The translations under genes were made by a program, and so were the position numbers. DNA of 64,000 bases, taken from Gracilaria domingensis. Its lineage: Eukaryota; Rhodophyta; Florideophyceae; Gracilariales; Gracilariaceae. Within the stretch, counting starts at the first letter, position 1, and the number at the start of each line of letters is the position of its first letter. Under the pieces are notes generated by a model. The model was not told the DNA's origin, did not search any database, and saw nothing but the letters and a program-made list of their open reading frames with translations. The stretch lies in assembly GCA_022539475.1 (NCBI GenBank), contig VCMS01000112.1, forward strand, positions 225,316 through 289,315, written 5' to 3'. Of this stretch, positions 20,335 to 62,889 are shown one piece after another.

Positions 20335-20354
20335 TACCTTTGGTACCTTTGGTA
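20335..20354. promoter_or_regulatory. Tandem overlapping palindromic element TACC-N3-GGTA (copy 2)
   Basis: TACCTTTGGTACCTTTGGTA; the reverse complement differs from the 4377-4396 copy at one of 20 positions. Confidence 0.45.
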
Positions 20355-26770: not shown

Positions 26771-27117
26771 GGGGGGCGGCGGGCGGCGGCGGGCGGCGGC
26801 GGCGGCGGGGAGCACGGCGCGGGAGGCGGCGCGGCGCGGCGGGCGGAAGACGCCGCGCGCGGCGGCGACACGCGTGGCGCGCGACGTGCTGTCCAGCTGC
26901 GCGCGGTGGCGTGGCGCGCGGCAGTGGCGCGTGCGCGTTCCGCGCGCGCGCCTTTTGAACGCGCGCGTGTCGCCGCGTGCGAGCGGCGCCGCGGCGTCGC
27001 TGCCGCACGCGCGACCGCGCCCCTTCCGCGCCGCTTCCGCCCGCCGCCGCCCCGTCGTTCGCCGCCGCCGCCGCAGCCGCCGCCGCCGCCGCCGCAGCCG
27101 CCGCCGCCGCCGCCGCA

Positions 27118-27149
<32 letters not shown>

Positions 27150-27166
27150 CGCCGCCGCCGCGCCTG
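26771..27166. promoter_or_regulatory. Bidirectional promoter region, DnaJ (-) and SIN3 (+)
   Basis: 396 bp of extreme GC between divergent ATGs. The SIN3 side ends in a long CCG/GCC trinucleotide run (about 27055-27165) with CAG interruptions. No TATA box is seen. Frames from both genes run through it, but neither continuation is likely to be translated. Confidence 0.55.
27055..27165. repeat. CCG/GCC trinucleotide repeat before SIN3
   Basis: More than thirty CCG-type triplets with occasional CAG and GTC interruptions lie immediately 5' of the chosen SIN3 ATG. Confidence 0.85.
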
Positions 27167-39563: not shown

Positions 39564-41306
39564 CTAACGTTGTTCCCGTTGGCGCTCGAGGTCCACAGCA
39601 TATCGCCATCTATCTATGCTCAACACGCTCTCTCCATGCGTCCGCGCGCAACATCGGGCTACGCTCAACCACTTTTGTAGAGTTTCTTGACCATCTTTGG
39701 CCTCACCTCGTCGTCTCGCCTCCACGTAAACCTTCTCCACATCTTGGGTTGCTTCAGTGGATATATCAAACTCGCCATCTTCAGCAAACAGCGCCATTGC
39801 TAGTCGCAACTTTCTTAATAAATCTGAAGAATAAGTCTTCCATCCTTGGAGCTCGAGTCCGCTGTCAGGTTTCACCCTGACTATGACATCGGCCGAAACA
39901 ACAGATTTGCCTCCTTTGGATACCAAAACGGAACAGCAATCAATCCCAACTTCAGATTCATAGTACACAAAATCAATCGGCATACTGCATCGCTGCGACA
40001 CGGAAGTTAAAGCTCTAATATTCTTCACTCCTCGTTCCGCCAATTGACCGTTGGTCATTTTGCTCTCGTTGACAATTAGACAAGTTCCACTAGGCATCTG
40101 AAGTGCACCGGCTTTCAGTCTATTCATATCGTAATCCTTCCTTGGGAAGACCTCTGTTGCGTTCAAGGAAGATATGTTGATGTCAATATCAACCACACTA
40201 GGGCACAAATTCCTTATAGCTGCACCAATCTCTTGACTCTTTTCGTACGAAGAATCATTTGGTAGTACCAGATTGACCGAAAGCTTGCCAAGAACACTAC
40301 CACCGTTTGTACGTATTGGTCTCGACAAAAGGCACATGAGCAAATATTCTGCAGCGAGAGTATCATTGTAGAGAACAGATGCGAAATAGCGCACGAGCAT
40401 TTCTCGAAGACCACCTGCCAGACTCTTCGCTTCTTTCTTCGCTTCCATGATTCCATTCGTACCCAGTGCCTTGGTTAGAGGATTAAGTTCCCATGGTTGC
40501 ATTTCCCTCCACTGCACTGCGTGAAGGCGTTTGACGTTACGAGGGTTACGGGCAAGAACTTCGGTTTGCAGTGGATCACTCTGATCCATACTATCATTCA
40601 TCGCGAATTCCAAACCATCGTGAAGCACGCCAACCACTTGTACCATCGTGTTTATCTTTAGGTCTCGGGCTTTATTCGCGTCGTACAGTTTGGCCACGAT
40701 TGCAGTTGCACCGGTCTGATTATGTACCGGCAGGTTGAGACCCATAGATGGAATTGAAACAGACCCAGATGCGCCGTCAGTACACTGCCGCTTGGAGGTT
40801 GCCTGCGCCTCTAAAGTTGAACACGCGGAGACAGACGGTTTGGTACAACTCTCTTGGTGTGGCTCATCAGACATCTGTGCATCCGATTCTCGAGGCCGCT
40901 TCTGGCCTCCGGTCTCTTTGGGAACTTGACGCGCTGAAAGTGAGCGAAAAGGGTCCGGCTTCGTCCATCTTGTCTGACCTGGGAGCGAAACAAGGTACAC
41001 CGGAAGTCTTTCACACAATTCGGCGGCGGGATGGTTGGATGCAGCGGCATTCTCTACAAGCAAACCAGAGTGTCCGTCGGGTGAGGATGTGACGAACAAT
41101 TCAGAATCCCAGATATCTTGAACCATGGCATCGAAACGTACCCATGTTCCTATCTTTGCACGTGGATCATCCACATATGGGATGTACTCCAGCGGAGGTG
41201 GTACAAGAGTTGACAGCACGTTTTCGAGCTGGGCACCAGGCTGCTTGATAAGGGCATGCGCGCTGTCTACAGGGTCCTTTGTGAAGTTGGTATTTATGCC
41301 GACCAT
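39564..41306 (-). CDS. MCMBP: MCM-binding protein (MCMBP/ETG1)
   Basis: A 580-aa protein from the ATG at 41306, close to the usual MCMBP length of about 600. The N-terminus has the family features (IPYVDDPRAKIGTWVRFDAM, VQDIWDSELFV), then a variable Ser-rich acidic region, a TGATAIVAKLYD segment, DLKINTMVQVVGVL, and a C-terminal AAA-like fold typical of the family (LSVNLVLP, a LKAGALQMPSGTCLIVNES motif, IDFVYYESEVGI). In animals and plants MCMBP binds MCM3-7 subunits, chaperones newly made MCM and helps unload it late in S phase. Here it is transcribed divergently from MCM3, its likely partner. Confidence 0.9.
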   Translation of the reverse strand: MVGINTNFTKDPVDSAHALIKQPGAQLENVLSTLVPPPLEYIPYVDDPRAKIGTWVRFDAMVQDIWDSELFVTSSPDGHSGLLVENAAASNHPAAELCERLPVYLVSLPGQTRWTKPDPFRSLSARQVPKETGGQKRPRESDAQMSDEPHQESCTKPSVSACSTLEAQATSKRQCTDGASGSVSIPSMGLNLPVHNQTGATAIVAKLYDANKARDLKINTMVQVVGVLHDGLEFAMNDSMDQSDPLQTEVLARNPRNVKRLHAVQWREMQPWELNPLTKALGTNGIMEAKKEAKSLAGGLREMLVRYFASVLYNDTLAAEYLLMCLLSRPIRTNGGSVLGKLSVNLVLPNDSSYEKSQEIGAAIRNLCPSVVDIDINISSLNATEVFPRKDYDMNRLKAGALQMPSGTCLIVNESKMTNGQLAERGVKNIRALTSVSQRCSMPIDFVYYESEVGIDCCSVLVSKGGKSVVSADVIVRVKPDSGLELQGWKTYSSDLLRKLRLAMALFAEDGEFDISTEATQDVEKVYVEARRRGEAKDGQETLQKWLSVARCCARTHGESVLSIDRWRYAVDLERQREQR

Positions 41307-41960
41307 TGCAGAGCAGTTTGATTTAGAACTGTGGAGTTCGACTGTTCTTAACGACCTGGAAAAGAGTAGTGGAGTTCACGGCGCTTGCAGAAGAAGCCTT
41401 TGCCGACAGGGATGAGCAGTGAGTAGAGGTGGCGAATAGAGAACAGGCAGATGACCACTTTGAACTCCCTGAACTCCTTTAAGTTCAACCTTCGTAACTT
41501 TTGACAGCGGTAAACGGCTTCAAAGTTCGAACCCGATGTGATTGAGACTCACGGTAACGGGTCCATTGCAGCAATGACGACAACGAACCCCGCCTTCTAC
41601 ATTGGGCCATGGGCTGCGGTGTTACCCACAAATTGGCGGGAATAACTCTTTCTTGAGGCCTTTCGAGAGGTCCGTGTCCACGTGGCATCCCATAACTGGT
41701 CTAACTCTCCTCATGTGGATGCTGTCCTTATCGGTCTGCGAAATTTGGCGGGAAAAGTTCGTCTTATGGCTAATACTGCAGCTCTCTTGGGACAAGGTCT
41801 CCCGCCTTTCGAAGTAGTGATATCAACTCCATTGGAAACATCACCCGAACATTATCACCCCAGCCGCTAACTTCATATATGCTCTGCTTCTTATCTTCGT
41901 TACAGTTCATCCGGTTATTCCAAGCTTTCCTTTCCCTTGCGCACCATACAGACCCGCGTC
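41307..41960. promoter_or_regulatory. Bidirectional MCMBP-MCM3 promoter with E2F sites
   Basis: 654 bp between divergent ATGs. TTTGGCGGGAAAA at 41744-41756 is a canonical E2F site (TTTSGCGGGAAA). ATTGGCGGGAA at 41632-41642 is a near match in the same orientation. MCM genes are classic E2F targets in plants and animals; regulation here is inferred from sequence. Confidence 0.7.
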
Positions 41961-44615
41961 ATGGCTACTGGAATTGATCCAACGACTCCTGTCGGCAATC
42001 GACAAGCCGAGCTCATGCGACGCTTCACTGATTTTCTTGACGCAGATAACCAGCATGGAATTCTCGCTAATCGTATCAAGGAAATGGTTACCCCACCAGA
42101 TCAGGCGACGCTCACAGCCGACGAAATGCCGAAACGTCTCGTGGTCTCTATTGATGACTTGCGAGACTTTGACCCAGAGCTCACTGCTCAGCTTCTTGTT
42201 AGACCCGTAGAATTCCTCCCTGTTTTCGAACGGGCAATGCAAGATCTTATTACCGGCATTCGTCAGGAGCTAACGTTGGACAAACGTAAGTTAGCAGAGT
42301 ATCGCATTGGACTCCAGGGTTCTTTTGGTTCGCGAAGAGTGTCTCCAAGAGGTCTTAAGGCCAATCTCGTCGGAGGCGTTGTGAACGTGGAGGGAATTGT
42401 TACCCGGGCTTCTGTTGTCCGTCCCAGACTTGTCCTGTCCGTGCACTACTGCCCAATTACAAAAAAGTTCCATGAGAAAACTTATCGCGACAATGCGAGT
42501 GTGAGCTCTCTGGCTGTATTCACTCAAAACTCTGGGATGCCTGGAAGTTCTTACCCAACGAAGGATGAGGAAGGAAATCCCTTGGAGACAGAGTTCGGAA
42601 AGTGTTGGTATAGAGATTCTCAGAGAATTACCATTCAGGAATTGCCTGAGACGAGTCCTCCTGGCCAGCTACCGAGGAGCGTTGATGTTCTCATCGAGGG
42701 AGACTTGTGTGATATATGCAAGCCTGGTGACCGAGTCAGCATTTCTGGTATATTCCGCGCCGTAGGTGGTGCAGTAGCGGCAGGTTCCAGTGGCCTGTTT
42801 TCAACGTTTGTAGTGGCAAACCATATCACTCTTTTGTCCGGGGCGGAAGGAAGAGTCACGGTCGATGCTTCGATCAATGAAGGCGACATCATGAACTTCC
42901 GTGACTATGCCAAAAAGGGCAATGTTCTCAACAGGATGTCGAAGTCTATAGCCCCAAGTATTTGCGGCCACGATTATATCAAGAAGGCATTGCTTTTGCT
43001 CTTGATTGGTGGCAAGGAACGAAACTTGGAAAACGGTACTCATCTGCGTGGGGACCTAAACATTCTCATGGTTGGTGACCCCTCAACTGCGAAATCTCAG
43101 TTGCTTCGCTTCATTATGAATACTGCACCTCTTGCTGTGTCAACAACGGGGCGGGGTTCATCTGGAGTTGGTCTAACAGCTGCCGTCACCAGTGACAAAG
43201 ACACAGGTGACCGCCATCTTGAAGCTGGAGCTATGGTGCTGGCAGATCGTGGGGTTGTATGTATTGATGAGTTCGACAAAATGTCAGACGAAGATCGTGT
43301 GGCCATCCATGAAGTTATGGAACAGCAAACCGTAACCATAGCAAAAGCTGGTATCCATGCAAGCTTGAACGCAAGATGTTCAGTTGTAGCCGCTGCCAAC
43401 CCAGTCTATGGCTCATATGACAAGACTCGCATGCCGAATGAGAACATTGCCCTTCCTGACTCATTACTCTCTCGTTTTGATCTCCTTTTCATTGTCCTTG
43501 ATGTCACGGACAAGGAAAGGGATCGTCAGATTGCCGACCATGTCCTTCGGGGCCATCGCTTCAGAAGGACAACCGAGACTTTAGATGACGCTACCGATGG
43601 ACCCGTTCGAGGACGCAATACCGGTGCAAACTTGGCGGATCACAGCTCTGAACCTGCTCCCGTTTATGAATCTGCTGCTTCTGCCTTATATGCCCCTTCA
43701 AGTGGGTCTGGAAGAAGACGATCGAGAAGACAGGCTAACAAGAGCGAGAACAGAATTCTGTCATCTAAGTTCCTCAAGCTCTACATCAGCTACGTCAAGC
43801 ATCGAATGAATCCTGTGCTAACGGAGGATGCTGCAGAGTTGATTGCAAAAATGTATCAATCACTTCGGCAAGATGAGTATTCAAAGACCCAGCATATTAC
43901 TGCACGTAGCCTTGAGACACTAATCCGATTGGCAACAGCACATGCTAAGTTGCGCCTCGAAAAACAAAAGGTGGGTACAGAAGATGTTAGAGCGGCTGCC
44001 GAAGTGTTACGCTTTGCTCTGTTTAATCAAGCTGAACCTGACAAATCGGAACGAGTGTTCCGTCGGAGTCAACGATCGAGGCGTTCGAAGCGAAACAAAG
44101 GCCAGAATGAAGACAGTGACGACTCTGACAGCAGTGACTCGGATGATGGCGACGGGGACGATGGAGAAGAGCTTGCGATTAATGGACAGAGCACAAGTGA
44201 AAATCCGGAGACCGGAGAAACAAACCCCGAAGAGGACGAAGATGAAATCACACCAGCTCCTAGCAGTCGTCGAAACTCACGACGTAGTCGCCATAGTGGA
44301 GCGGCAAATGGCGGTTCCAGCAAAAGAGCCTCTGCGACAGGTTCAAGCCTCCCTGAATCAGCTCAGGCAGAAGGGGGTTCGCAAATCGATGAAGAGGGTG
44401 CCAACGAAGCAACTGATGATGTAGGTCGAGTTAAAATTGGCTTGAACAAATTGCGAGGGCGTGATAGTACTGTGAAGCTACCTTCGTTGATTAGTTTGCT
44501 GACATCTGGTGAGCATGGAGCCCCGATGACAGAGGAGGCTGTGCGCCAAGCATTGGATAAGCTTCAGGAACGAGATGTAGTAGTCATTGCCGATGAATCG
44601 ATCTTCATTGTGTAG
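41961..44615 (+). CDS. MCM3: DNA replication licensing factor MCM3
   Basis: The ATG at 41961 gives 884 aa in one exon. The N-terminal OB-fold domain (GLQGSFGSRRVSPRGLKANL, NVEGIVTRASVVRPRLV) is of MCM3 type. The AAA+ core has Walker A GDPSTAKSQLL (from residue 372), Walker B VVCIDEFDKM (about 431-440), sensor NARCSVVAAANP and the arginine finger LSRFDLLF (near 502). The motif VSTTGRGSSGVGLTAAVT identifies MCM3 among MCM2-7. An acidic/Ser-rich linker (about 717-800) precedes a C-terminal winged helix. MCM3 forms the MCM2-7 helicase loaded at origins. It is head-to-head with MCMBP. Confidence 0.97.
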   Translation: MATGIDPTTPVGNRQAELMRRFTDFLDADNQHGILANRIKEMVTPPDQATLTADEMPKRLVVSIDDLRDFDPELTAQLLVRPVEFLPVFERAMQDLITGIRQELTLDKRKLAEYRIGLQGSFGSRRVSPRGLKANLVGGVVNVEGIVTRASVVRPRLVLSVHYCPITKKFHEKTYRDNASVSSLAVFTQNSGMPGSSYPTKDEEGNPLETEFGKCWYRDSQRITIQELPETSPPGQLPRSVDVLIEGDLCDICKPGDRVSISGIFRAVGGAVAAGSSGLFSTFVVANHITLLSGAEGRVTVDASINEGDIMNFRDYAKKGNVLNRMSKSIAPSICGHDYIKKALLLLLIGGKERNLENGTHLRGDLNILMVGDPSTAKSQLLRFIMNTAPLAVSTTGRGSSGVGLTAAVTSDKDTGDRHLEAGAMVLADRGVVCIDEFDKMSDEDRVAIHEVMEQQTVTIAKAGIHASLNARCSVVAAANPVYGSYDKTRMPNENIALPDSLLSRFDLLFIVLDVTDKERDRQIADHVLRGHRFRRTTETLDDATDGPVRGRNTGANLADHSSEPAPVYESAASALYAPSSGSGRRRSRRQANKSENRILSSKFLKLYISYVKHRMNPVLTEDAAELIAKMYQSLRQDEYSKTQHITARSLETLIRLATAHAKLRLEKQKVGTEDVRAAAEVLRFALFNQAEPDKSERVFRRSQRSRRSKRNKGQNEDSDDSDSSDSDDGDGDDGEELAINGQSTSENPETGETNPEEDEDEITPAPSSRRNSRRSRHSGAANGGSSKRASATGSSLPESAQAEGGSQIDEEGANEATDDVGRVKIGLNKLRGRDSTVKLPSLISLLTSGEHGAPMTEEAVRQALDKLQERDVVVIADESIFIV

Positions 44616-49463: not shown

Positions 49464-50438
49464 ATGTCTGCTGCGCGTGATTCCATCGACATGGAACCTT
49501 TGCGAGGCGTGCCACGCGGTGCCGCCGACGCGTCTCTGAGTGTCAACAGAGAAGCAAAAGCTGCGCTCTCGGGCGCGAACAAGTCTGGTTTCAGAGAAGA
49601 TTATGCAAACGACTTCGCGTACGGTACCAGTGTGGCGACATGTGAGCCTGTCATTCGCCTCGGCTTTATTCGCAAGGTTTACGGCATTCTGGCGGCTCAG
49701 CTGGCTCTCACCGTCGTGATATGTGCAGCTTTTATGTACATTACTCCGCTACGTTTGTTTGTAATCAAGGCTAATGGTTTTCTTTCCGTCGTTTCCATGA
49801 TAGGTACTTTTGGTACGCTGTTCGCGCTGCTCGCTTTCAAAGACTCGCATCCGACCAATATGCAGCTGTTGGCTGCTTTTACTGCGTTCGAATCGTTCTT
49901 GGTGGGTTCCATTTGCGCCCAATATGAACAATCTGGTCTTGGGGGTTTGGTGCTTGAAGCCCTTGTGATTACATTGGCGGTATTTTCTGGCCTTACATTG
50001 TACGCCTTTGCATCCAAGAAGGACTTCTCGTTCATGGGTGGGGCTTTGTACGCTGCTTTGATGGGCCTCCTGGTCGCGTCCATCGTCAACCTGTTCATCG
50101 GTTTCACCGGTAACAAGAGCCCGTTCTTGGCTATGCTCATTTCATACGGAGGGGCTTTGTTATTCAGTCTTTACATCCTCTATGACAGTACGTTAACTGC
50201 AAACCAAAACGAAGCAAAGGCGAAGCAAAGGCGAGCGTTGTTTTTATTTCCATATACAATGTTTCTAACCCATTTCTCTTATTGTAATGTCGTGCGCGTT
50301 TTTCTGAAATGAACAGCTTCTATGATCATGCATCATCTTGGTCCCGATGACGCCATCATGGGCGCGATTATGCTGTACTTGGATCTGTTGAACCTGTTTT
50401 TGTACATCTTGGCAATCTTATCCCGAAACCGAGACTAG
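49464..50438 (+). CDS. Bax inhibitor-1 / Lifeguard (TMBIM) family protein (spliced)
   Basis: Exons 49464-50187 and 50317-50438 with a 129-nt intron (GTACGT...AACAG), phase 1, giving 281 aa. Splicing restores the family C-terminus LYDTSMIMHHLGPDDAIMGA, which is lost if the intron is read through. The FIRKVYGILAAQLALTV segment before the first helix is typical of the Lifeguard/TMBIM4 branch. Seven hydrophobic segments are visible, the last near LYLDLLNLFLYILAIL. Members sit in ER or Golgi membranes and modulate calcium leak and cell death. The N-terminal 60 residues are soluble and divergent. The ATG at 49464 was chosen as the first Met; the frame before it has no ATG. Confidence 0.92.
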
Positions 50439-51204
50439 GAACATAGCGCGAGCATTGAAGCAAACTGAACACGTAAGGGAGCAGTTTGCGCAGGAGCACG
50501 TGCGAAGCAAAACGGAGTGAAGGAGCCGTCTCGCTGTGGTAGAAGTGTGGTCTAACAGCAATGGAGGAACATGAAAATGCGCTCTTGTGTAGAGTATCTG
50601 TTATAGTTAATTGTGGTTTGACTAAAGCACAGTAAGCGTTGAGGTTGCAGGTTGAATGGTGATAGATTGAACGTAGACAAGCTAACGCATCGCAGTTTGC
50701 TCGAAAGTTGTGGACAAATACGACGCAAGCTGTGTTGGAGTGGTTCAGTTAAGCGCAGCTTTGATGACGACAGATTGCAGTATGATATTGCTCGTCTCTT
50801 TTTAGGTGGTAAATGTTGATATGCATGACGCAGCGCGTCGTTGTTCGCACAAAGTTTGTGCTCTCGCACCGCGGCGGAAATGGAAAATAGAGCTGGAGAT
50901 GGCGCAGCTTGTGTTGCATGTGCGTGTGCGTGTGCGAGTGCGTGTGTGGGGCGGTGGGCAGGTGTGCAGAATGAGCGGTGTACGCGAAAGCAATTGCCAT
51001 ATACACGAGCGAGTAGAGACGGGTAGTGGGGTGCGGACGAATATGGGCGTTCAACCGGGTAGGGTAGCTCGCAACCGAGGCGACGGAAAAACAAAAAAAG
51101 TTGATCAGTTAAAACGCAGGACTCCGTTACGGAGCTGGACACGGAGCGAAAGAGCGAAAACGGGACGGGAGGTGAGTAAAGCAGAGTAATGCAGCTGCGA
51201 CGAG
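50439..51204. other. Convergent intergenic region after the BI-1 gene
   Basis: About 770 bp between convergent genes. A (TGTGCG)n-like run near 50920-50950 (GTGTGCGTGTGCGAGTGCGT) is the only notable feature. Frames on both strands lack content. Confidence 0.55.
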
Positions 51205-51752
51205 TCATACTTCGGAATCGTCTAAACCCATACGCGAGCGCCACGCAGCCTGTGCGCAGGAGAAGAAGTGAAGCAAAAAGTTGAAAAGGGTGTACATGAG
51301 CAGGAGCGGGATGAGCAGCACGATGAGCGCGTTTCTGGAGATGCCGTCGGCCGGCTTGGCGTCTGGCGGCACGCTCTCGACGACCGGCACGATGAGCCCG
51401 TCTGGGCTGACGTAGCTGAGGCGGTCGTGCACGGCGATGAGGGTGACCAGCACGAGCGCGAGGCAGGTGGCCCACTCGAGCAGCACGAGCAGCACGAGGC
51501 AGCAGTCGGCGGGGGTGGTGATGACGGCATCGAGCTGCGCGCGCGGCGGCGAGGGCGCGCAGGGCGCGAGGCAGAGCAGCACGACGAGCAGCGAGAGCAC
51601 GTAGGGGAGGGCGAAGAGCGCGTTGGCGCGCGCGACCACAAAGTGGCGAAAGGCGTCGCTGGTGAGAAAGAGGTACAGCACGAGCGCCAGGTACGCGGAG
51701 AAGAAGAGCGCGGCGGCGGCCCACAGCGCGTGCTGGCGGAACGGGTGCGGGC

Positions 51753-51784
<32 letters not shown>

Positions 51785-51831
51785 TACTGCGCCAGCGGAC
51801 GGTGCAGGTCGATGAGCACGGCGTCCGACAT
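51205..51831 (-). CDS. Orphan four-transmembrane protein, 208 aa
   Basis: The ATG at 51831 opens 208 residues. After a Pro-rich start, hydrophobic segments lie near residues 35-57, 70-93, 108-132 and 168-192, with a short polar loop holding DRLSYVSPDGLIVPVVES between the last two. Strong membrane character on this strand, against a meaningless antisense frame, supports it as real. A hydrophilic tail ends in acidic residues. I do not recognise the family. It is divergent from SAS-6 with 247 bp between start codons. The frame extends further upstream only because of GC content. Confidence 0.7.
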
Positions 51832-52078
51832 GGCGGGGCGGCCTGGCGGCGGGGCGCTGGTGGGCGCGGGGCGGCCGCGGGCGGCGGCGGCGCGCGCGCG
51901 CGCGCGGCGCAGAGATGCTCGCGCCGCGCGAGCATCTCTCTCTGCGCGCGCGCGCGCTGACGTGGCCACGTCGCGCGCCGATCGCGCCGCGCGCGGCTGG
52001 CGCCAAAAGCGCTTTCTGCTGTGGAGAGTTTACAAAGCGCGGCGCGGCGGCCGCGCGCCGCGCTTCGTACCCAAAGCG
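51832..52078. promoter_or_regulatory. Short bidirectional promoter, four-TM gene (-) and SAS-6 (+)
   Basis: 247 bp of GC-rich sequence between divergent ATGs. It has a central perfect inverted repeat (51911-51939) and GGCGCCAAAAGCGC near 51999-52012, which contains an E2F-like GCGCCAAAA. Confidence 0.5.
51911..51939. repeat. Perfect 13-bp inverted repeat with 3-nt centre
   Basis: AGAGATGCTCGCG (51911-51923) and CGCGAGCATCTCT (51927-51939) around CCG. GC-rich flanks on both sides can extend the pairing. It could extrude as a cruciform or bind a dimeric protein. Confidence 0.75.
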
Positions 52079-53353
52079 ATGGCGCGCGAGCCGCTGCTGG
52101 ACGAGGCGCTGCCGCTGGCGGTGCACCGCGGCGCGGCGGCGCCGCCGCCGGCGCGCACGTCGCTGCGCGCCAGCGTGTCGTGGAGCGAGCGCGACGCCGC
52201 GCTCACGCTCACGCTGCTGGACCTGTCGCCCGAGCTGCTGCTGCTGCGCCACGTGCAGACGCCGTCGTCGTACCCGCCGCTGCGCGCCGCGCAGTCGCTG
52301 CGCGTCGACTTCTCGCAGTTTGCGGCGCACCTGGTGCGGCTGCTGCGGCGCGTCGTCGCGGACGACGCCTTCGCGGCCGAGCTGCACCTGCGCGCGCGCG
52401 GCGACGACCACCCCCACCACGACCACCACGAGCAGTTTCACACCCCGAGCGAGGGCGCGCACGAGGAGTCGCCGCCGCCGCCGCCGCCGACGGCGCTGCT
52501 GCGCATTGTGGAGGTGGCGCCCTTCAAGGTGATCACGCACATGGAGCTGGTCATGCAGCACGCCTCCAACCAGCAGCTGGCGTCCACGCTGGCAACGCTG
52601 GCGCGCGGCGCCACGCTCAGCGCGCAGCGCGAGAAGGAGCTGGGCGCCAGCTTGGAGCAGGCCAACGCGCAGCTGCACGACGCCAACGCGCGCGCAGATC
52701 GGTTGCAGCGGCTGCTCACCGACGCGGAGGAGAAGATGCGCGAGGGAGAGCGCGACGCGCAGCGCTGCCAGCAGCTGCAGCAGCTGCTGGATCGCAGCGA
52801 CCAGCGCGTCAGGGAGCTGGAGGCTTCGGACGACGGCCACCGCGCGCTTGGCGCCGAGTGCGAACGGCTCCGAGCGGCGGTGGGCGCGCTGACGGAAAGC
52901 GACGGCAAGAAGGGCGCTGAGATCGAGGCGCTGAAGCAACGCGTGCAGGCAGTGAGTGCGCAGCGGCAGGAGGCGTGCAGCGAGATTGAGAAGGGCAACG
53001 GCATCATTGAGACGCTGCAGAAGGAGCTGCGAACCAGTCGCGCGCGGAGCCGCGTCAAGAGCAAGCTGATTGGCAAGCAGGAGCAGGTTCTGGGCGAGCG
53101 CGACGTGAAGATGGGCGAACTGCAGCGGGAGGTGGTGCGCGTGCGCGACCGCGCCGCGCTGCTGCAGGTGCAGAAGGAAGGCGTGGACGAGCGGCTGCGC
53201 GAGGCGCTCGGCAAGCTGGAGGAGAACCGCGCCGTGCTGCAGAGCGACCAGCAGGTGATTGCGTACCTCAACCGCGAGCTCAACGACCGGCTGATAGCGC
53301 CGCTCGGCGGCGAGGCGGTGCACGACGTGGTCGGCGGCACGCAGCAGGTGTAG
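52079..53353 (+). CDS. SAS6: SAS-6 centriole cartwheel protein
   Basis: From the ATG at 52079 the protein has 424 residues. The N-terminal head domain (about 1-165) shows the SAS-6 pattern: a LLLLRHVQT strand, LRAAQSLRVDFSQFAAHLVRL (family: LLVDFxxFPxxxxxLL), then ALLRIVEVAPFKVITHMELV, the PISA motif region with the conserved VE-x(2)-PFK-x(2)-TH core. A His/Pro-rich insertion (about 104-138) interrupts it. Residues about 175-395 are a continuous charged coiled coil. VIAYLNRELND near 394-404 matches the conserved VIxWLNKxLNE at the end of SAS-6 coils. The disordered C-terminal tail usual in animals is almost absent. In other organisms SAS-6 homo-oligomers give the centriole its ninefold symmetry. 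The frame is open further upstream, without a better start. Confidence 0.85.
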   Translation: MAREPLLDEALPLAVHRGAAAPPPARTSLRASVSWSERDAALTLTLLDLSPELLLLRHVQTPSSYPPLRAAQSLRVDFSQFAAHLVRLLRRVVADDAFAAELHLRARGDDHPHHDHHEQFHTPSEGAHEESPPPPPPTALLRIVEVAPFKVITHMELVMQHASNQQLASTLATLARGATLSAQREKELGASLEQANAQLHDANARADRLQRLLTDAEEKMREGERDAQRCQQLQQLLDRSDQRVRELEASDDGHRALGAECERLRAAVGALTESDGKKGAEIEALKQRVQAVSAQRQEACSEIEKGNGIIETLQKELRTSRARSRVKSKLIGKQEQVLGERDVKMGELQREVVRVRDRAALLQVQKEGVDERLREALGKLEENRAVLQSDQQVIAYLNRELNDRLIAPLGGEAVHDVVGGTQQV

Positions 53354-53704
53354 ACGCGCCGCGCGCAGATTTTGGCGGCGTGGCGCTTCCGCGCCGACGG
53401 CGGCGGCGCGCCGAGCTGAGCGGCGCTTGGAGGACTCATCGGCGCGCCATGCGCGCGCCGCGCGCTCATTGGCCGTTTGCAAATACATGCACCTTTTCGC
53501 CCTCAAAGCGCCCCCAAAATATCGCCACCGCGTAGCGTGGAAACTGCAAAATGCGCGCCGCGCTGCACTGCCCTCTCTCCGGTCATCCCCCCTCCCCACC
53601 CCCCCTGCATCCCCCCCGCCCCAGCCACCTTCGCGCCCTGCCCCCCTCCCCCCCCCCTTCCGCGCCGCCGCCTGCCGTCGCCCGTGAGTGCCGTTTTGTT
53701 CCCC
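53354..53704. promoter_or_regulatory. Intergenic with C-rich pyrimidine tract before the 249-aa gene
   Basis: 351 bp. TTTTGGCGGCG near 53369 resembles an E2F core. A C/T tract (53586-53660) with several C6-C9 runs ends about 45 bp before the ATG at 53705. GTGAGT near 53684 could be a leader splice donor. Confidence 0.45.
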
Positions 53705-54454
53705 ATGTTCGCCTTCACCCCGAGCGCTCCGCTCCGTCCGGGCGCGCCTGGTCGCGCTCCGCGATGCGCCGCGCCCGGCCGCCGACGGCGCGTTTTCGCT
53801 GAGATGCGCCCGCCTATACGCCCGCGTCGCGTGCGCGTCGCCAAGAAGCATACCAGTTCCAGCAACAACTGGCAGTGGTCTGGCGCCCGTTCCTCGTGGA
53901 GGACAATCTTCACCATGGACAACAGAGCGTTTCTGAACGCGCTGGAGACGTTTGCCGCCTCTTGCGTCGAGTCCTCCTTGTTGGCGCGCGTCACCAAGTT
54001 GGGCGCGCGCGTGCTCAGGGGGATTACCGATGCTTTTGAGCGCACGTGGTACCCGGATGTCGAGAAGGAACTCGTCGTGGACTATGGGCTTGCCGAACCT
54101 TCGCCCACCGACAAGACCTACGTGCATCCGCTCACCGAATGGGAGATTAGCCACGAAAATTACTATCGAGATTCGTTTGGAAGGAAGGTTTATCTTCAGT
54201 TGGATGGCGCTTCCGCCGTTTTGTCTGCCATGGATTATCGAGACGTTTACGATGCCACTGCGCTGGACGATCAAGATGAGCATGATGCACACGAGACGTC
54301 GCGAACAACTGAATGTGATGACGAACCTCAAAACCTTCACTCTAGCGAATATGAGCTCGATCTGGATCGCACTCTCCACATACCACCTGCGTTTTATCAA
54401 GTTCGTGTTCAGCCACCACCGCCGCCATCGCAATGCGATCAGCATACAACGTGA
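53705..54454 (+). CDS. Orphan 249-aa protein with possible plastid presequence
   Basis: The ATG at 53705 begins MFAFTPSAPLRPGAPG, Phe-containing, then Arg/Pro/Ala-rich and acid-free to about residue 60, which fits a red-lineage plastid transit peptide. The rest is clearly coding with normal composition: a helical segment near MDNRAFLNALETFAASC, an ERTWYPDVEKELVVDYGL stretch, then an acidic C-terminus with His/Asp/Glu-rich stretches and a Pro-rich end. No family is recognised. Met at 53914 is an alternative start if a leader intron removes the Arg-rich segment (donor-like GTGAGT near 53684). Confidence 0.6.
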   Translation: MFAFTPSAPLRPGAPGRAPRCAAPGRRRRVFAEMRPPIRPRRVRVAKKHTSSSNNWQWSGARSSWRTIFTMDNRAFLNALETFAASCVESSLLARVTKLGARVLRGITDAFERTWYPDVEKELVVDYGLAEPSPTDKTYVHPLTEWEISHENYYRDSFGRKVYLQLDGASAVLSAMDYRDVYDATALDDQDEHDAHETSRTTECDDEPQNLHSSEYELDLDRTLHIPPAFYQVRVQPPPPPSQCDQHTT

Positions 54455-54886
54455 CCCGCGTTTTTGCTTCCTTGCATAAATCTCCCCAACTCTGTACAGC
54501 CATTCATGCGATTGCCAAATGTGAAACCCAATATTTCTCCAACGTAGAACATTACCCCAAACGGAGTGAGCTACCGTGGATCGGCCATTTGGACCCACGT
54601 GCCAAGCTCTCTTTCCACGAGAGGCACCCTTCGATCACGTCTCTTGATACTGTACGGGCACACCTGGGACGCCGTCAGTACCCTTCATAACAAATGATTA
54701 CACCAAAAACCAGGTAACAGAGGAGACTGCAGTGGCTGTGTGTCGTGCTCTGCTGACGCTCTCTGTTTGGTGATGGCTTGTTTTTTGCCTTCATATTCGA
54801 CCGGTTACTTGGTATACTGTAACAATCTGTTTCTTCCCCTACTTTCAACTCTTTCCCTTCTTTTTTCATGCAATCCACCAAGTGCT
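54455..54886. other. Convergent 3' region before PPWD1
   Basis: About 430 bp, no gene seen. It includes the 3' end of the 249-aa gene and the 3' flank of PPWD1. Confidence 0.6.
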
Positions 54887-57234
54887 TCATTCCGAGTGTA
54901 CCGATATGCTTTCAATTCGAACATCTTCCATCGGTTTATCGTGCTTGTCCGTTTTCACGGTTTCAATCTGTTTCACCACAGTCATTCCCTTCACAACTTT
55001 GCCTGCAATCGCCACGCCACAGATTTATCATGTGTTGTGGTCGCGCGGTTCACGCAAAATTGGTTTCAGATATGATCAGCAGTGGAAATCAGAGAGGACG
55101 ACGCCAATTTAAGATTAAACAGGAAGATGTGGTTAGTGTCACGATACGCCTTGTTGTCATAGTCAGTGCGGTTGTCCACGCAGGCCGGTATATGCTATAC
55201 CTTATAAAGAAACTCATCCATCCTTTTTCTTCAAAGTGTTGACACTTTTGATGACATGTATCTCATTCGACGATAAACTTACCGAAAACGGTGTGCTTGC
55301 CATTCAAGTGCGGAGCGGCCTCACATGTTATGAAGAATTGCTTTCAGGGACGTGACACACAAAGTTACAGCAGGCGAGTTAGTAACAAAGTGGCAACAAT
55401 CATCGCATCCTTATCACCAAAACCAACTCAGCAATTCAAGGGTAGGAAAACAAGTAAGGTAGACATGACTCACCGATCCATTTGTGTTGGGTCCTGCGTT
55501 GGCCATGGACAAAGACCCCACTTCATGCTCGAGTGAAGGATTGATCTCGTCTTCAAATTCAGCGCCCCAAATAGACTCACCACCTGTTCCATCGCCATCT
55601 GGGTCACCACTCTGTACCATGAATCCTCGAATGACACGATGAAAGATCACGCCATCGTAGTAACCATTTCGCGCATGCGTAGTAAAATTTTGCACTGTCT
55701 TGGGCGCCTGTTGCGCAAACAGTTGCAACATTATGTCCCCGAGACTCGTGTGTAGCGTGACACGCTTCGGAAGCTGTTCGGGTGATAGTTTCTTGTTGGA
55801 AAGCTCTGTGGGAGATGCTGATAGCGACTGTGAGGCCGTGTAAAGAGGTTCATTCATCACATCTCTCCCTTTTTCGGACACTTGTGCCGCTCCAAACAGG
55901 AAAATGCGCTGACTGTCAAACGCTGATGCGACAACAAGAGGTTGCAACGAAGTAGGAATACCATTATCACGGTCAATAGTATCCGCAGCGCATATGGAAA
56001 CGTTAACAAATCGATACCGATGTTCATTTAATCCGAATATGAAAACGGTGCTCGTGGACGATACATGGATCATATGGATTCCTAAAACCGTAGCGTACAA
56101 AACGTACTGACCAGTCTCGTCGAATACAACGTTGTTCTGCGCTCGCATCTGTTCATGTTTTCGAAGCAACGTTTCACAGGCCAATCTGTCCTCAAAATGT
56201 TGATTGTTAAGCCCAAATGTTTCGTATTCGTTGTTCGTCACAGCGGCTCGAATAGCTGTGAGTGACAGATCAACCATAGACAGGCGAAGGCCGGTCAAGA
56301 ACTGAAAGATGTGAATTCTGCAAGACTGGTCAACAACAACAAACTGAGAGCCGCGAGGCGATACATTCAATGCAGAGGCCACAAGCGCATTCCGCGCAAA
56401 GTAGAAAAGGTGCGTGCGCAGCTTTGAGCGAAACTGCAACTGAGGAATGTCCACAGAGGCCTGGTACGAAGTGCCAGTCCGTGCGACGGCCCAGTAGTCA
56501 ATCACGTTAGCCTCGTCGATGGAAATAACAGCAGAATACGTATGGTTGTACGTCGCAAGCGAGAGTGGTTTGGCATGCGGACTCGTTAAATCTGATCGAA
56601 ACTGTAGCTCGGGTAAAGTGAAACAAGCTACGTTGGGCGACTTTCTGTGCGATACAAGCGCGATACGCGTTGATTGCAACTCGATGTGCAACAATACGGG
56701 GCCGGCGTCGAATGACAAGGAAAGGACGTGAAGCAGTTCGAAGGTAGGCGTGGAAAACAACTTGAGCGTTCCATCCGTAGCACTGGTTGTAAGCAATTGA
56801 TCAGCACGCCTCGACAAGGCAGTTGCCAACAGAGGGGCCTTATGCGCAAGCAATCGCTTTACAAAGTGCAACTTGGCGCGCGCAGAGTTGACGGCACTCT
56901 GGACATCGGAACGATTGTTGGTGCGCGAGGGCGAGCCAGGCGGCGAGGTGGATCGCGCCCAAAACGTGAGTGACGCATCCAGTGACGCAACTGTGATGGA
57001 TGACGACGATGTAAACAGACACTGGACCGGGCGGCGCATCATATATGATCGCTGATAAGACGGGCCCTTGGGAAGGTGCAGCGGCAATGATGCGCCATGA
57101 CGTCGCGCCTGCGCAACCTGCTCGAGACGGCGGCGCTTGCGGGGCGGCGAGGGCGGAGGCGGGGGCTGGGCAGGGCCCAACGGCGAGGGGGAGGACGCCG
57201 GGGACGGCGGCGAGGACGATGGCGAGGACGACAT
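54887..57234 (-). CDS. PPWD1: WD40-cyclophilin peptidyl-prolyl isomerase PPWD1 (three exons)
   Basis: Exons on the minus strand are 57234-55474, 55340-55283 (58 nt) and 55002-54887, giving 644 aa, matching the roughly 650 aa of PPWD1. Donors are GTGAGT and GTAAGT; both acceptors end in AG. Residues 1-60 are Pro/Ser-rich with KRRR. WD40 repeats follow to about 470 (for example KAPLLATALSRRADQLLTTS, DGTLKLFSTPTFELLHVL). The cyclophilin domain spans about 488-644: TLHTSLGDIMLQLF, GVIFHRVIRGFMVQSGDPDG, then across the introns ANAGPNTNGS-QFFITCEAAP and HLNGKHTVFG-KVVKGMTVV. The catalytic Arg of FHR, the QSGDP and the FFIT core are intact. The protein is a spliceosome-associated isomerase in animals, acting in the nucleus. 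Confidence 0.93.
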
Positions 57235-57670
57235 GGGAGACGCGTCGCGCGACGGGGGGGGGGGGGGAAGGCGGTCGAGGGTTGTTGCGTATGTGCCGGA
57301 GGCGGCGGCGCCAGTGGCGCGGCGCCACACGGTAAGTTCGCGCGGCGAGCGGAGCGTGACAAGTGGCGGCGCGCGCCGCGTGGACGGCGTCGAGCACGCG
57401 TCCGTCTGTAAGCCGCGTGCGGCCTCTTTCTGTCCGTTAACTGGCGCGCAGATTACTGGCGCGCAGTGGAACAAGCCGCGCAGCGGGGCGTATCCCTGCG
57501 GATATGCGGCGTAAGCGCTTCGTACAACAAAGGCGCCGCGTTAGACGCTTCACTTTACAAAGCTGTGTGTCGTGCACAACAGGAGCGCTTGTGAGTAGGG
57601 GGCATGTTGCGTGGCTCGGCGAGCTACGTGCAGCAGGGGCGAAAATCTTCCGGCGGCATGCAGGCCGAGG
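57235..57670. promoter_or_regulatory. Intergenic between PPWD1 and the cyclin gene, with G/C run
   Basis: About 435 bp. A run of 14 G on the plus strand (57254-57267) is a C run on the PPWD1 sense strand, 19 bp before its ATG. The rest holds the 3' end of the cyclin gene. Confidence 0.45.
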
Positions 57671-58612
57671 TTACACATCGGAGCCAGCAAAGTCGTCCAG
57701 CGACGACACAGGCGAGCTTGGCGGTAATTGCTCCTCCAGCGAGTAGCCCATGTTTCGCAGCCGCTCGTGTAGCATGATGAACTGCGAGTCGTCGCAGCAC
57801 AGCACCTCCTTCAGTACTGACCGCTCAAACAGCTCGAATTGCTCCGCGCTCACGCACAGCTCGAAGCGCAGCACCCTGAGCATGTCCAGCTCCAGCACGT
57901 TGAGCTCCTTCACGTCCAAGCCGCCAACCTTCGCGAAATGCGCATTGTCGTACAGAATGTCGTCTACAAACTTGGTGGCCAGCAGGGTGGCTGTCAGCAG
58001 TAACCGGTGAATGCTGAGCGAATTGATTGTTAGTCGCGCGTGTTGCAACTTGCAAATCTTTTGAAGATAGTAAAACGCTAGAATGAACGCAGAACGAGAG
58101 CAAAACGCATATCGAGCGAGACGGCGAAGATACTCCACCGGTGTGATGGACGGCGCTTGCAACGCGTGAAACACGGACGGTTCCCTCTCGGCCGGCTGCG
58201 CGCCTGCTTCCCGCTGCGCAACGCGCTTTCTCACGGCGGGCGACGCGGATTCACAGGCCTCCAACGCATCGTTGCGCTGAATTTGCAAAGTCATGTAGCA
58301 CTCCAGCACATTGATGAGCAACTCACAGTTTGTCAGGCGCGGTTGACTGGAGGGCAGCGTAGAGAACGAAGCGGAGAGGTGATCATCAAAGGAGGAGGAG
58401 GAATGGAGGAGGGATTGGGTGGATGTGGCGAGCGTCGACGACGAGTCGGTGCGTTTTGATGGTTGTTTTTGCTGAGAGTACAATAGCGCTGTCTGCTTGC
58501 CGTGAAGTGCTGCGGTGGTGGGCGCGGCGCCGTGGGCGTGGTTGCGCGATGTGAGCGCGGTGGATGCGCGGTGGTGGTGCGCCTTGTCCTGGAGTGTGCG
58601 CAACGGAACCAT
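57671..58612 (-). CDS. PHO80-like (U/P-type) cyclin
   Basis: A 313-aa protein from the ATG at 58612. Residues 1-90 are Ser/Thr/His-rich. The cyclin fold of the PHO80/CycU type follows at about 95-270: a CELLINVLECYMTLQ helix, then APSITPVEYLRRLARYAFCS, SIHRLLLTATLLATKFVDD, and AKVGGLDVKELNVLELDMLR, all signature segments of the family. The KFVDD and NVLE cores are conserved. Such cyclins partner PHO85-like or A-type CDKs in phosphate signalling and cell-cycle control. The C-terminus is acidic. A palindromic TATATATA lies about 90 bp upstream. Confidence 0.92.
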   Translation of the reverse strand: MVPLRTLQDKAHHHRASTALTSRNHAHGAAPTTAALHGKQTALLYSQQKQPSKRTDSSSTLATSTQSLLHSSSSFDDHLSASFSTLPSSQPRLTNCELLINVLECYMTLQIQRNDALEACESASPAVRKRVAQREAGAQPAEREPSVFHALQAPSITPVEYLRRLARYAFCSRSAFILAFYYLQKICKLQHARLTINSLSIHRLLLTATLLATKFVDDILYDNAHFAKVGGLDVKELNVLELDMLRVLRFELCVSAEQFELFERSVLKEVLCCDDSQFIMLHERLRNMGYSLEEQLPPSSPVSSLDDFAGSDV

Positions 58613-59339
58613 GATGCAGAAGGCAGCGTCTACGGCACGTCACAAACGCAAGCACACGCGTGCGAGTCGGTGTCAGCGGACGGCAGCAAGCGGCGCCGAA
58701 GTATATATACGCGCTGGCTGACGGCGAAGCGCGGCACGAAAGTTGAGGCACGAAACTCGAGCGCGAGAAGCGAAGAATATGACAAGCAGCGCCACGGAGG
58801 GAAAAGCCGTTGGCGCGGCGCGGCGATTTCGGGGCTTGGACACGAACGTGCAAGCGATGCGCGCACCCAAAGCGGCGGCGGCACCCGAAGCGGCGGCGGC
58901 GGCCGCACGCAGACGGGCAGCCGGCGACACACGCGCGACAAGCGGCAGGCGGCGGGCAGCGCCAACGGCACGCGCGGGGGGGGGGGCCGGAAACGGAGGA
59001 GCGACTGCGGCGCGGCGGCGCACAACCCTGGCGGCCGGCCCCCGCGCGGCGGCGCCGTTTACAAGGCGCGGCGCGCGCAGCGCGCGGCAAGCAAACGCGC
59101 TTGCGTGTGTGACGGCGCGCGCGCGCGCGTGCGCCGCGCGGGGTGCGGGAATGGGAGGCGCCGCGGCTGACAGTCGTGACGCCGCGCCGTCACGTCGGCG
59201 CCGTTGCTTTTCTCGCGCCGCGTCGACAGCGCGGCGCGCTGTAAAGCCGCTGCCGCGCGCGCGTCGCTCGCTACGTTGGCGCCGCGCCGCGCCGCGCCCA
59301 CGTCCGACGTCCACGTCATTGCTCTCAGCGTTTATCTTT
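58613..59339. other. GC-rich intergenic, 0.73 kb, with TATA box
   Basis: Open frames on several strands are Arg/Ala-rich and judged spurious. It includes the cyclin promoter and a run of about 11 G near 58977-58987. Confidence 0.55.
58702..58709 (-). promoter_or_regulatory. TATA box TATATATA of the cyclin gene
   Basis: TATATATA in an otherwise very GC-rich region, 90 bp before the cyclin ATG (58612), so it stands out as a core promoter. Confidence 0.5.
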
Positions 59340-60560
59340 CTACCGCGCCAGCCGCCCGCGACGCCAGTCTCCCGCCCGCGACGAGCGCGTCCGCCGCAGC
59401 GACGCGTCGTCGCCGCGCGCCGCGCTGCGCTCCAGGCTCCGCCGCGCCGCCACGCGCCGTTCCTTGGCCAGGTGCACCGCCGCCCCGTTGGAGTAGAAGC
59501 GCACCTGCACGCCGTATCGCTCCACCGCCGCCTTGATGTCCTCCACCATCCTGGCGTCCTCCCCCTCCGCAGTCGCGCTCTGCGGCTGCACGCCTGGCGC
59601 TGTCAATTCGCGGTTGATTTCCAAGTCCCACCCGCGTCGCGTGATTACAGTGTCCTCGCTTTCAAACTGCGCCCAAACCCTCGGAGAAGGCACATTCGTG
59701 CTTCGCGCACTGCGCTCTCTTTGAGACGCCGCGCCGTCAAACAGACGATGGATCAAGTCGAACAGCACGCCTTCTGAATTGTGATCATCTCCGGCGTGTC
59801 GTTTCTGTCCCGCCACGATGCGCATCTCCCTCCACGGCGGCTGTTTCATAACCTCGCTTATGCACTTCAGCGCATCCCGTTCACACAGACGGTGCAGATC
59901 CAATTCCCCCCATCGTTTGTACCATTCCCTCGCGCTATGCCTTAGCATGAAGCTCAACGTTCTTCTTAACCCTGTCAAATCACGCCCGCAAAGCTTTTCG
60001 TCCTCCTCTCCAAACCACTCTCTGTCCGAAATTTCGTCTCGCAGGACCCCGAGTTGTCGCTGCACGTTCAGGAATCCCTCATACGTTTCCCCCCACTCTT
60101 TGCTCCAAAACTCGTGTTGCGCAGCTTGCCAGTTGTGAAAACGATCCACATGCCCACACGCTTTACGTAGACGTTCCCTCTTCCAGTTCAAACTCCCTCT
60201 CATGCCCTCGTTTGACTCCCAGTTCTCTTGCTCCAACACGTGAGAGCCCTTCGGTTCCTCCGCTGTCCCTGCTCTGGGCAATTCTGCTATGGGAGGCACG
60301 AAAATGTTTCCCCTCCGTACGCCTCCTGGTGCGCCGTATCCGTGCATGCCAATGCGTGTTCTTCCAGGTGTGCCATGTCCTCGCGCTCTTACCAGTTCAT
60401 CATACGCGAATGGATATACACCTCTACATTCCTTCCATGTTTTCTCAATGACTTTTGGTCGATGTTGGAATATGAACTGTAGATATTCTTTGTTTCTCTT
60501 TTCATCCTTGCTCATCCCTTCCTTATCGTCTCTAACTTCAAAGAAGCCCCTATGCTGCAT
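59340..60560 (-). CDS. Orphan 406-aa protein, possible nucleic-acid role
   Basis: The ATG at 60560 opens 406 codons of ordinary composition for the first 300 residues, then an Arg/Ala/Ser-rich C-terminus. Residues about 1-60 are charged (MSKDEKRNKEYLQFIFQHRP), 110-170 contain many Trp, Arg and Glu, and near residue 195 the stretch DLTGLRRTLSFMLRH resembles the start of Tpt1/KptA RNA 2'-phosphotransferases, but the NAD-binding motifs of that family are not seen later. I do not assign a function. No signal peptide or membrane helix is visible. The change of composition near the 3' end could mean the C-terminus is wrong through an unseen intron. Confidence 0.6.
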   Translation of the reverse strand: MQHRGFFEVRDDKEGMSKDEKRNKEYLQFIFQHRPKVIEKTWKECRGVYPFAYDELVRARGHGTPGRTRIGMHGYGAPGGVRRGNIFVPPIAELPRAGTAEEPKGSHVLEQENWESNEGMRGSLNWKRERLRKACGHVDRFHNWQAAQHEFWSKEWGETYEGFLNVQRQLGVLRDEISDREWFGEEDEKLCGRDLTGLRRTLSFMLRHSAREWYKRWGELDLHRLCERDALKCISEVMKQPPWREMRIVAGQKRHAGDDHNSEGVLFDLIHRLFDGAASQRERSARSTNVPSPRVWAQFESEDTVITRRGWDLEINRELTAPGVQPQSATAEGEDARMVEDIKAAVERYGVQVRFYSNGAAVHLAKERRVAARRSLERSAARGDDASLRRTRSSRAGDWRRGRLAR

Positions 60561-62889
60561 AGCGCTTCCTTTTATCTATCGTCGAGGCTTCACGAAAAAG
60601 CTGTGGCTTCACAAAAAGCATTCATTTGGCATCACAACATCATGTTAGTTTTCTTTATCCTGTCGCACAATGACGTTGAGCTGCGAAAATGATTAGAGGA
60701 CAGGTGTTCCTACCTCTTCTTCTCTTCCACAGGTATGGTGAACTCAGCAGCTGAATTTGATGAAAAGCAAAACTGAAGTAGAACGTATTGAAAAACAAGC
60801 CACATAGTTGAGCGCAACTCAACTATTTGTACGCTTATGAGATTCGCAGCCTTTAAGGCTGAACAGTTGAACCAAAGCGGGACATCGAAGCAAGTTCCAC
60901 GCGCCCCTCCTCGTGGGAAACTTGAACCGTGCACGCCTGCATGGTGCTGTTGCCCCACCTTGAGGAGAAAAACTGTACATGGGCCATGGTAGCATGACAT
61001 ACCGCCAATGTTCCGTTTTCAACCTTCAAGTTCATAGGGCAACATGGCCGTGTGCGAACAGCTGTGTCGACGGTCAGCCCCGATCTCGGGTTTGTTCTGT
61101 TGGTTCGTTTGTAATTGCAATATGTGTACCATATGTGAGACCCTTTTGTTTTTATTGGAGTTCGTATGAAGCGTTTGTAAGACGATGAGAGCAAAGTTCT
61201 GCAGGAGATGTGCATTACCACATGTCATGCGAAAGGCCTTGCAAAAGCACGCGTAATTCAAGCACTGTTTGCGTTCAACATGTGATAAGACTATATGCTA
61301 TTATCGCTCTCTTGTCTGAAGTACGTTCGCATCTGACAAACCTTCAAAGCAGACTTAAAATATGTTCTAAAGATAATATCAATCATTCATGCTTTTGCCT
61401 ACAATCCCTCGGCCCAAGATTGTGATGCGCCGGGCCTCTTCTGTGCGTACCACAGACGAAAGTTTGCTTATTCCGTGTCTTAATTGTGGGTGCGCCTTGT
61501 ACTTGGCCCGGTTTTGCACTTTGAGACAGGGCAGACTTAATGTTGGACACAGTGAGAGCGTGGAAGAATGAATGTCTACTCTTTGATTAAATCGAGTGGT
61601 TCAAAGCCTCGAGAGCTGTTTATGACTGGGGTCAAATGTTCGCCTGAACGATGCGACACACCTGTTCAGATCAAAACGAGTCGCGAAATTCTTGCGCGAA
61701 TAGAGGCGTTGTGGGGACATCGTAGACGACATTCTCATGGACTTGTGCTTTCCATAGAGATTTGCGCGTAAGATTGGTTAGCCCTTTACTCCCTAGTAGG
61801 GGGTTCTCCGAAAAACGCTCTGTGTGGACACGGACATACATTGGCTGCCCTTACCACACAAGTAGTTTTCTCTTTGAGAACCATATGACCTTCCCCGTCA
61901 ACGGTCAACGATGGTTGTACGGCTGCTTCCCAAAAAAGATATCTAAACTGTAAACTATTGATCGCGAGAGAGCTCAGTTTTGAAGCAAATTGCAGCGTGA
62001 CACAGTTCTTGCGCGCCAGCAACGACACAGAGCGCTGAAAGCTTAAGAGGGCTTTTGGTTGACAAAAGAGTTCTAGCTGCGTTAACGTATAGCGATATCA
62101 GACCGCTACCAAGGTAGATACTGGTAGTGCGGTGGAGCGTACGAACAATAGCTGAAGAAAACAGCTCTGTGGGTGGAAACTTCGTGGAGTGCACCTTCGT
62201 ATCCATGTCTCCAAACGTTCTCGCCCCGACGAAGAGCCAGAATGCTGGCATCATCATGCGTGATGCCCCCCGTATGCTTTTTACAGTTTTGGGCCAAAGA
62301 AACTGAAAATTTTGGGTGATGAGAACGAAAAATGAAGTCGAAATTCAAATTGATCCAGCCTCAGCACACAACCAAAAATCATCAAGTCTGGGCACAGTTC
62401 GCACCAGGCGAAAACGGTTTTCGCCGAAACGCGCGCTTTGCATACTGCCACAGGCACTGCCTGGCAGTAGATATCTATCTACGCGCCCAAAAACGGCTTC
62501 TCGCAGAAAAACTCAAAGAGCAACAACAACACAACTCCAAATTGGCTTGCGGAACAGCGTCGCCTCCTTTTGTTTTCATGAAGCAAAAACATTCATGCCT
62601 GCTCTTCGACATCCAGTTTTGCTTGTGATTCTCCTTTTTGTTCTTGTTCCATATATATGAGCCTTTCAAGCAAACCACTCTTCTATGCTATATCTGCTGC
62701 TTTACGGTTCGAATCCGCATTCAACTCACCATTGCTCTCTTCTTTTTTTTGATCCGCTACTTCTCTTACACGCTACCTTCTCGCGGTCTATACCTCCAAG
62801 TTGGCCACAATTTATCCCAAACCCATCATATCTATTTGTCTTTCCGAATACGTCAACTTTCCACAACAACAACCACCAAAGCAGAAACT
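60561..62889. other. Region without a confirmed gene, 2.3 kb
   Basis: Ordinary composition with many short frames. A minus-strand frame (60853-61221) ends with a Met-initiated 63-aa stretch around 61037, and a plus frame near 61389-61571 has four Cys, but neither is recognised. A TATATATG sequence at 62651 lies 240 bp ahead of the next gene. GGTTCGAATCC near 62706 looks like a tRNA T-loop but has no cloverleaf. Confidence 0.5.

Follow-up and report, generated by a model that had tools for sequence, protein, structure and literature searches.

A predicted SAS-6 gene in a red alga, a lineage without centrioles, and its possible role at the polar ring

The stretch of DNA analysed here, 64,000 nucleotides long and referred to as the window, carries an uninterrupted reading frame that spans a whole gene without requiring an intron, and whose predicted product of 424 aa is, by profile and architecture, a genuine but divergent, nuclear-encoded SAS-6. 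SAS-6 is the builder of the nine-fold cartwheel of the centriole, and red algae are a standard example of a large centriole-less lineage. The features of the locus, in window positions, are the following.

51205 to 51831, minus strand: divergent neighbour gene, 208 aa, nothing over cut-off in Pfam, membrane-like by eye, separate from the SAS-6 gene
52079 to 53353, plus strand: SAS-6 gene, ATG to TAG, 424 codons plus stop, without intron, assigned from the open reading frame and the PF16531 match
52079 to 52603, plus strand: head domain, about residues 1-175, with the SAS-6_N match at residues 40-158
52304 to 52321, plus strand: VDFSQF, which stands opposite VDFLAF of human and VDFASF of Chlamydomonas in the alignment
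52400 to 52489, plus strand: His/Pro-rich insertion of ~30 residues within the head, at about 108-137, missing from the three reference heads
52499 to 52567, plus strand: PISA-like stretch LRIVEVAPFKVITHMELVMQHAS, from the alignment to our own profile, residues 139-172
52523 to 52525, plus strand: codon of Phe149, aligned to the position of the head-head interface residue
52583 to 53293, plus strand: coiled coil, about residues 169-405 (~235 residues), from heptad analysis and predicted helices
53255 to 53287, plus strand: C-terminal motif VIAYLNRELND, from the alignment to the human coiled-coil end

The open frame by itself is weak proof of a gene, because the GC content around it is 71% and the opposite strand holds an ORF of 1297 aa. 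The GC content per codon position (0.79/0.43/0.94) fits a coding sequence, and position 2, the lowest here, is lowest or tied lowest likewise in 13 other measured genes of the window. This pattern alone cannot pick the strand, since the antisense frame mirrors it (0.94/0.43/0.79); it is homology that settles the strand of the predicted gene. The window is uneven in composition, with GC-rich islands of about 58-74% at positions 16000-22000, 25000-29000, 50000-55000 and 56000-61000 in a background of mostly 45-57%, and the SAS-6 gene and its divergent neighbour lie inside the same island.

The Pfam profile SAS-6_N (PF16531) matches the whole protein with 31.5 bits (E 2.2e-7), which passes the curated cut-off of 25, and the head alone (first 185 residues) with 34.1 bits (E 3.5e-8). 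Five more families appear up to E 1 in the whole protein, all below their own cut-offs, the best being ATG16 at E 0.0052; for the head alone SAS-6_N is the sole family listed up to E 10, in a search where the HMMER filters drop most matches above ~0.1. Throughout the assembly (77,892,253 bases, 680 contigs) the same profile finds one place, the SAS-6 locus (32.8 bits), and it matches nothing in 14 control genomes, the controls named elsewhere being prokaryotes. The original prediction, which had recognised a SAS-6 head from the patterns VDFSQF and VEVAPFKVITH and proposed a search with the SAS-6_N profile, is thereby supported: both patterns are found, and the profile match is significant.

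A profile of our own was built from three solved SAS-6 heads, which we take to be those of human, zebrafish and Chlamydomonas. It scores the window head at 21.5 bits and the whole protein at 18.4 bits, while among 2000 shuffles of the window head, 1225 of which were reported, the top score is 4.2. The PISA motif VEVAPFKVITH is present together with the phenylalanine of the head-head interface: Phe149 aligns exactly with a position at which three solved constructs, presumably head-head interface mutants, carry a change to E or D, and its counterpart is, we assume, the interface residue F131 in human and F145 in Chlamydomonas. In SAS-6 rings this phenylalanine holds neighbouring heads together. 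Other parts of the head have diverged, and neither the DFQSLK nor the PGND/PGSD stretch of the reference heads is conserved. Ring formation is not assured, given this divergence and the insertion of 30 residues.

The plan of a head followed by a coiled coil is common to the XRCC4/XLF/PAXX/CCDC61/SAS-6 superfamily, and the single-sequence similarity to solved SAS-6 is weak, the best single-chain match in the PDB being a SAS-6 homolog (5al7) at E 0.023. Both points would suit another member of this superfamily. That the protein is such a relative rather than SAS-6 is nevertheless very improbable, as the head alone matches SAS-6_N with no other Pfam family listed up to E 10, and the C-terminal motif resembles that of SAS-6. 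An XRCC4/XLF-type protein in particular was ruled out by profile, with no match to XRCC4, XLF or a relative in the head.

Downstream of the head the protein is free of proline from Pro148 to Pro408. The heptad signal, calculated in windows of 42 residues, stands out in six of 28, all within residues 169-378, where 1 in 1000 shuffles or fewer attain it; in between, several windows are not above shuffles. The resulting coiled coil of ~235 residues bears out the long coiled coil of the original prediction, and is shorter than the ~300 residues quoted for SAS-6 in an excerpt of PMC3697468. A single-sequence AlphaFold2 model, computed without an alignment (mean pLDDT 59.5, pTM 0.28), places helices at residues 147-273 and 279-409, with block pLDDT values of 68-86 over residues 181-400, and gives residues 1-155 no head fold (pLDDT <50); on the SAS-6 fold of the head the model thus weighs neither way. 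At its end the coiled coil aligns with the human counterpart, a reference stretch that we take to be of the ITWLNKELNE type, with a score of 93 that is reached by none of 2000 shuffles (maximum 60), as compared to 41 for the remaining coiled coil. The terminal YLNRELND described from the sequence is thus present and its similarity is beyond chance; the accompanying remarks on a His/Pro insertion in the head and on the missing long C-terminal tail were likewise correct. All SAS-6 features that gave a test result are present in the protein.

High GC content also bears on whether the gene does anything at all. In a region of 71% GC with long spurious ORFs, a decaying or near-neutral leftover without function could be held open by composition, and the divergent head with its low-complexity insertion would suit such a relic. 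We consider this improbable: a single frame contains the head, the coiled coil and the end motif, and that frame is intact although the loss of centrioles would be very old if it preceded the red algal radiation.

The host of the gene is identified as a red alga from its plastid contig, from red-type phycobilisome linkers in the nucleus, and from a repeat shared between contigs. The plastid contig (C680; 179,836 bases, 27.4% GC) carries genes for subunits of phycoerythrin and phycocyanin and, as judged by eye, of allophycocyanin. For phycoerythrin beta the best PDB match is 8u0f, entitled 'Bacterial fluorescent protein beta' (332 bits), with the R-/B-phycoerythrins 1lia, 9mgb, 3v57, 1eyx and 9o61 within 6 bits of it. 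Phycocyanin beta is identical at 153/171 positions to 2bv8, at 150/171 to 5y6p and at 147/171 to 6kgx, which are presumably from Gracilaria chilensis, Griffithsia and Porphyridium, respectively; on these identities we call the host a red alga, perhaps a florideophyte. The phycobilisome linker family PF00427 has 14 matches, four on the plastid contig and ten across eight other contigs. One of the latter, C11, holds beta-tubulin besides a phycobilisome rod linker, whose best single-stretch match is LR3 of 5y6p (431.8 bits); a multi-domain CpcN chain reaches a larger total, 569 bits, when its 5 stretches are added up. The contig with SAS-6, C112, is tied to C11 by the following element.

13498 to 13748, no strand assigned: dispersed repeat of 251 bases, shared with C11, C13, C24, C28, C37, C65, C78, C160, C258 and other contigs

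The repeat occurs at 90-91% identity on nine other contigs including C11, and at lower identity on further ones. Because C11 carries it as well as a linker and beta-tubulin, the SAS-6 contig most likely belongs to the same nuclear genome as the linker contigs. On these grounds we reject the alternative raised earlier, an organism other than a red alga. Several copies of the repeat carry an adjoining second match to its second half, and a different element of 110-113 bases on the dynein contig C6 (90-91%) is common to three of the repeat loci.

Algal assemblies often include foreign contigs, and the surroundings of the SAS-6 gene exceed most of the window in GC content; both points would suit a contaminating contig of flagellate origin, or an assembly that is not red algal. 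The chance of this is very slim. The repeat that reaches C11, with its rod linker and beta-tubulin, at 90-91% on nine contigs argues against a foreign origin, as does the divergent neighbour, which is similar to SAS-6 in third-position GC (0.90 and 0.94, respectively), and the assembly search gave neither an axonemal dynein nor a delta- or epsilon-tubulin. Taken on sequence evidence, SAS-6 is very probably present in a red alga. Elsewhere in the window (39564-44615), a gene for an MCM-binding protein adjoins an MCM gene, probably MCM3, in divergent orientation.

The original prediction had also proposed a search of the same genome for centriolar and axonemal genes, and no match to SAS-4, PLK4, delta-/epsilon-tubulin or axonemal dynein over cut-off was obtained. 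The profile searches of the assembly were carried out without exon joining, many genes of the window being single frames, and with no eukaryotic positive control. All five tubulin candidates match their family. By eye, two of them are beta-tubulins, one is a gamma- and one an alpha-tubulin, and the last is an alpha-like fragment interrupted by a stop; no delta- or epsilon-tubulin is among the five. The fragment with the internal stop (G000:C91:142037-142243, locus L006) adjoins a frame that by eye resembles a DDE transposase or a relative, and is perhaps a pseudogene. The one DHC_N2 candidate matches and corresponds to a single dynein heavy chain, encoded in one frame of 4602 aa on the minus strand (G000:C6:135315-149123, loci L034 and L035). 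Its first 2041 residues, the sole part searched, score 534 bits against cytoplasmic dynein 1, 357 against dynein 2 and 346 against axonemal chains; this lone chain thus best matches cytoplasmic dynein 1, and axonemal and IFT dyneins were not found in the assembly. In excerpts from the literature dynein 1 is stated to be absent from red algae, in one case based on Cyanidioschyzon (PMC2239267) and in another in the same sense (PMC8754002), and certain red algae are said to have lost all dyneins (PMC12338079).

The SAS-4 domain Tcp10_C gave no match in the assembly up to E 1 and POLO_box none up to E 0.1, both in searches with no eukaryotic positive control. Plk4_PB1 and Radial_spoke likewise had no match in the assembly, which does not imply absence, as both profiles matched nowhere, controls included. 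The four assembly matches of IFT57 are all below cut-off (best 20.5 as compared to 40), and six control genomes match too. Overall, SAS-6 seems to have been retained while the other parts of the centriole kit were not. A 427-aa protein on another contig (C198, locus L042:475-1755, minus strand), a coiled coil by eye, matches centrosomin motif 1 (Cnn_1N, PF07989) weakly, with 22.1 bits at E 0.0116 in one search and 20.4 bits at E 0.00059 in another, the cut-off being 28.5; in the search that gave 22.1 bits, two prokaryotic control genomes likewise matched below cut-off, and in the PDB the protein has only a weak coiled-coil match. It is possibly a candidate activator of the gamma-tubulin complex.

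With the interface phenylalanine retained and a full coiled coil, one might suspect a hidden or short-lived centriole with a cartwheel in red algae that has escaped microscopy. This is extremely improbable: the SAS-4 domain, the polo box of PLK4 and delta-/epsilon-tubulin were not detected in the assembly, and the electron-microscopy record of red algae is long. The definition of the group, in an excerpt of Adl et al. 2019 (PMC6492006), points the same way, describing red algae as devoid of centrioles and basal bodies, along with any other 9+2 structure, and as having polar rings in their place; the statement in the original prediction that the group lacks centrioles and basal bodies agrees with it.

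Compared with the SAS-6 of centriole builders (human SASS6, Chlamydomonas Bld12/SAS-6, zebrafish), the red algal protein shares the SAS-6_N head, the interface phenylalanine, a long coiled coil and a similar coiled-coil end; it differs in the 30-residue His/Pro insertion, in the loss of the DFQSLK and PGND/PGSD stretches, in the missing long C-terminal tail, and in belonging to a host group without centrioles. SAS-6 outside known centriole builders has precedents, as an excerpt of De Leon et al. (2013; PMC3697468) places it, in addition to organisms that build centrioles, in Encephalitozoon cuniculi and Ostreococcus tauri. Compared by description and not by sequence, the present case is set apart from these two by a red algal host in which polar rings replace centrioles. 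The original prediction had called an intact SAS-6 unexpected here, which is slightly too strong in view of these two species without a known centriole (PMC3697468, excerpt). The kind of finding is known, namely SAS-6 in acentriolar genomes, and the red algal lineage is what surprises. In the parts of the open-licence literature that were searched, neither a SAS-6 from red algae nor a named component of the polar ring came up. It is quite possible that an automatic annotation of a red algal SAS-6 already exists in protein databases.

What SAS-6 may do in such a cell can be argued from the parts that it has kept. With the interface phenylalanine and the rod of the dimer retained, a parsimonious reading is that the ability to self-assemble has been preserved to build something different from the nine-fold microtubule cylinder. 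The coiled coil would still mediate dimerisation and the heads oligomerisation, and the ring or short cylinder so formed would serve as a scaffold at the acentriolar organelle of the spindle pole, the polar ring. Gamma-tubulin, and perhaps a protein of the CM1 type, would act together with it, and nine-fold microtubules would no longer be templated. The original prediction had suggested such a use, giving the ring-like nucleus-associated organelle of the spindle pole as an example, and it is still the likeliest one. To our knowledge no other ring-shaped structure is known at the poles of red algal spindles, which makes the polar ring the first place to look. Taking the identity as given, a role at the polar ring comes close to an even call, and the statement as a whole, a divergent SAS-6 that forms a ring or cylinder scaffold at the polar ring of a centriole-less red alga, is more tentative still. 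Confidence in the role is held back because the head is divergent, having lost DFQSLK and PGND/PGSD and gained the insertion, and the single-sequence AlphaFold2 model resolves no head fold over residues 1-155. The statement, in the excerpt of PMC6492006, that spindle microtubules do not converge onto red algal polar rings also speaks against the role.

A SAS-6-type head can build arrays outside centrioles, since SAS6L forms linear arrays on the conoid fibres of Toxoplasma (PMC12819142, excerpt). The red algal protein could by analogy have been kept for another non-centriolar job, for instance in a cytoplasmic or cortical filament or as a linker, away from the spindle pole, and its divergent head and insertion would agree with a changed partner. 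SAS6L has the head domain in common with it and acts outside the centriole; in Toxoplasma it lies apart from centrioles, and in Trypanosoma its place is the basal plate (PMC3697468, excerpt). We nonetheless regard such a job as unlikely, because the long coiled coil and the SAS-6 C-terminal motif point to a dimer-spoke architecture that has been kept, unlike in SAS6L, which the same excerpt (PMC3697468) defines by its missing coiled-coil tail, as compared to ~235 residues here. By this architecture SAS6L itself was rejected as the identity of the protein.

The scaffold at the polar ring, still the preferred reading, may be taken one step further. The red algal polar ring could be a remnant of the cartwheel, in which a SAS-6 ring or stacked cylinder marks the spindle pole and, because SAS-4 and delta- and epsilon-tubulin are gone, templates no microtubule blades. 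This extension is somewhat unlikely as it stands; if true, red algae would own a centriole-derived organelle and not a substitute for one. A SAS-6 that has outlasted the rest of the kit offers one concrete candidate for a polar-ring protein, and the old question of whether polar rings descend from centrioles becomes approachable by antibody or tagging, a transformation system having been described for the red alga Porphyridium purpureum (PMC6110788). If SAS-6 was indeed kept after the kit was lost, red algae would represent a natural experiment that separates the making of a ring from the templating of microtubules.
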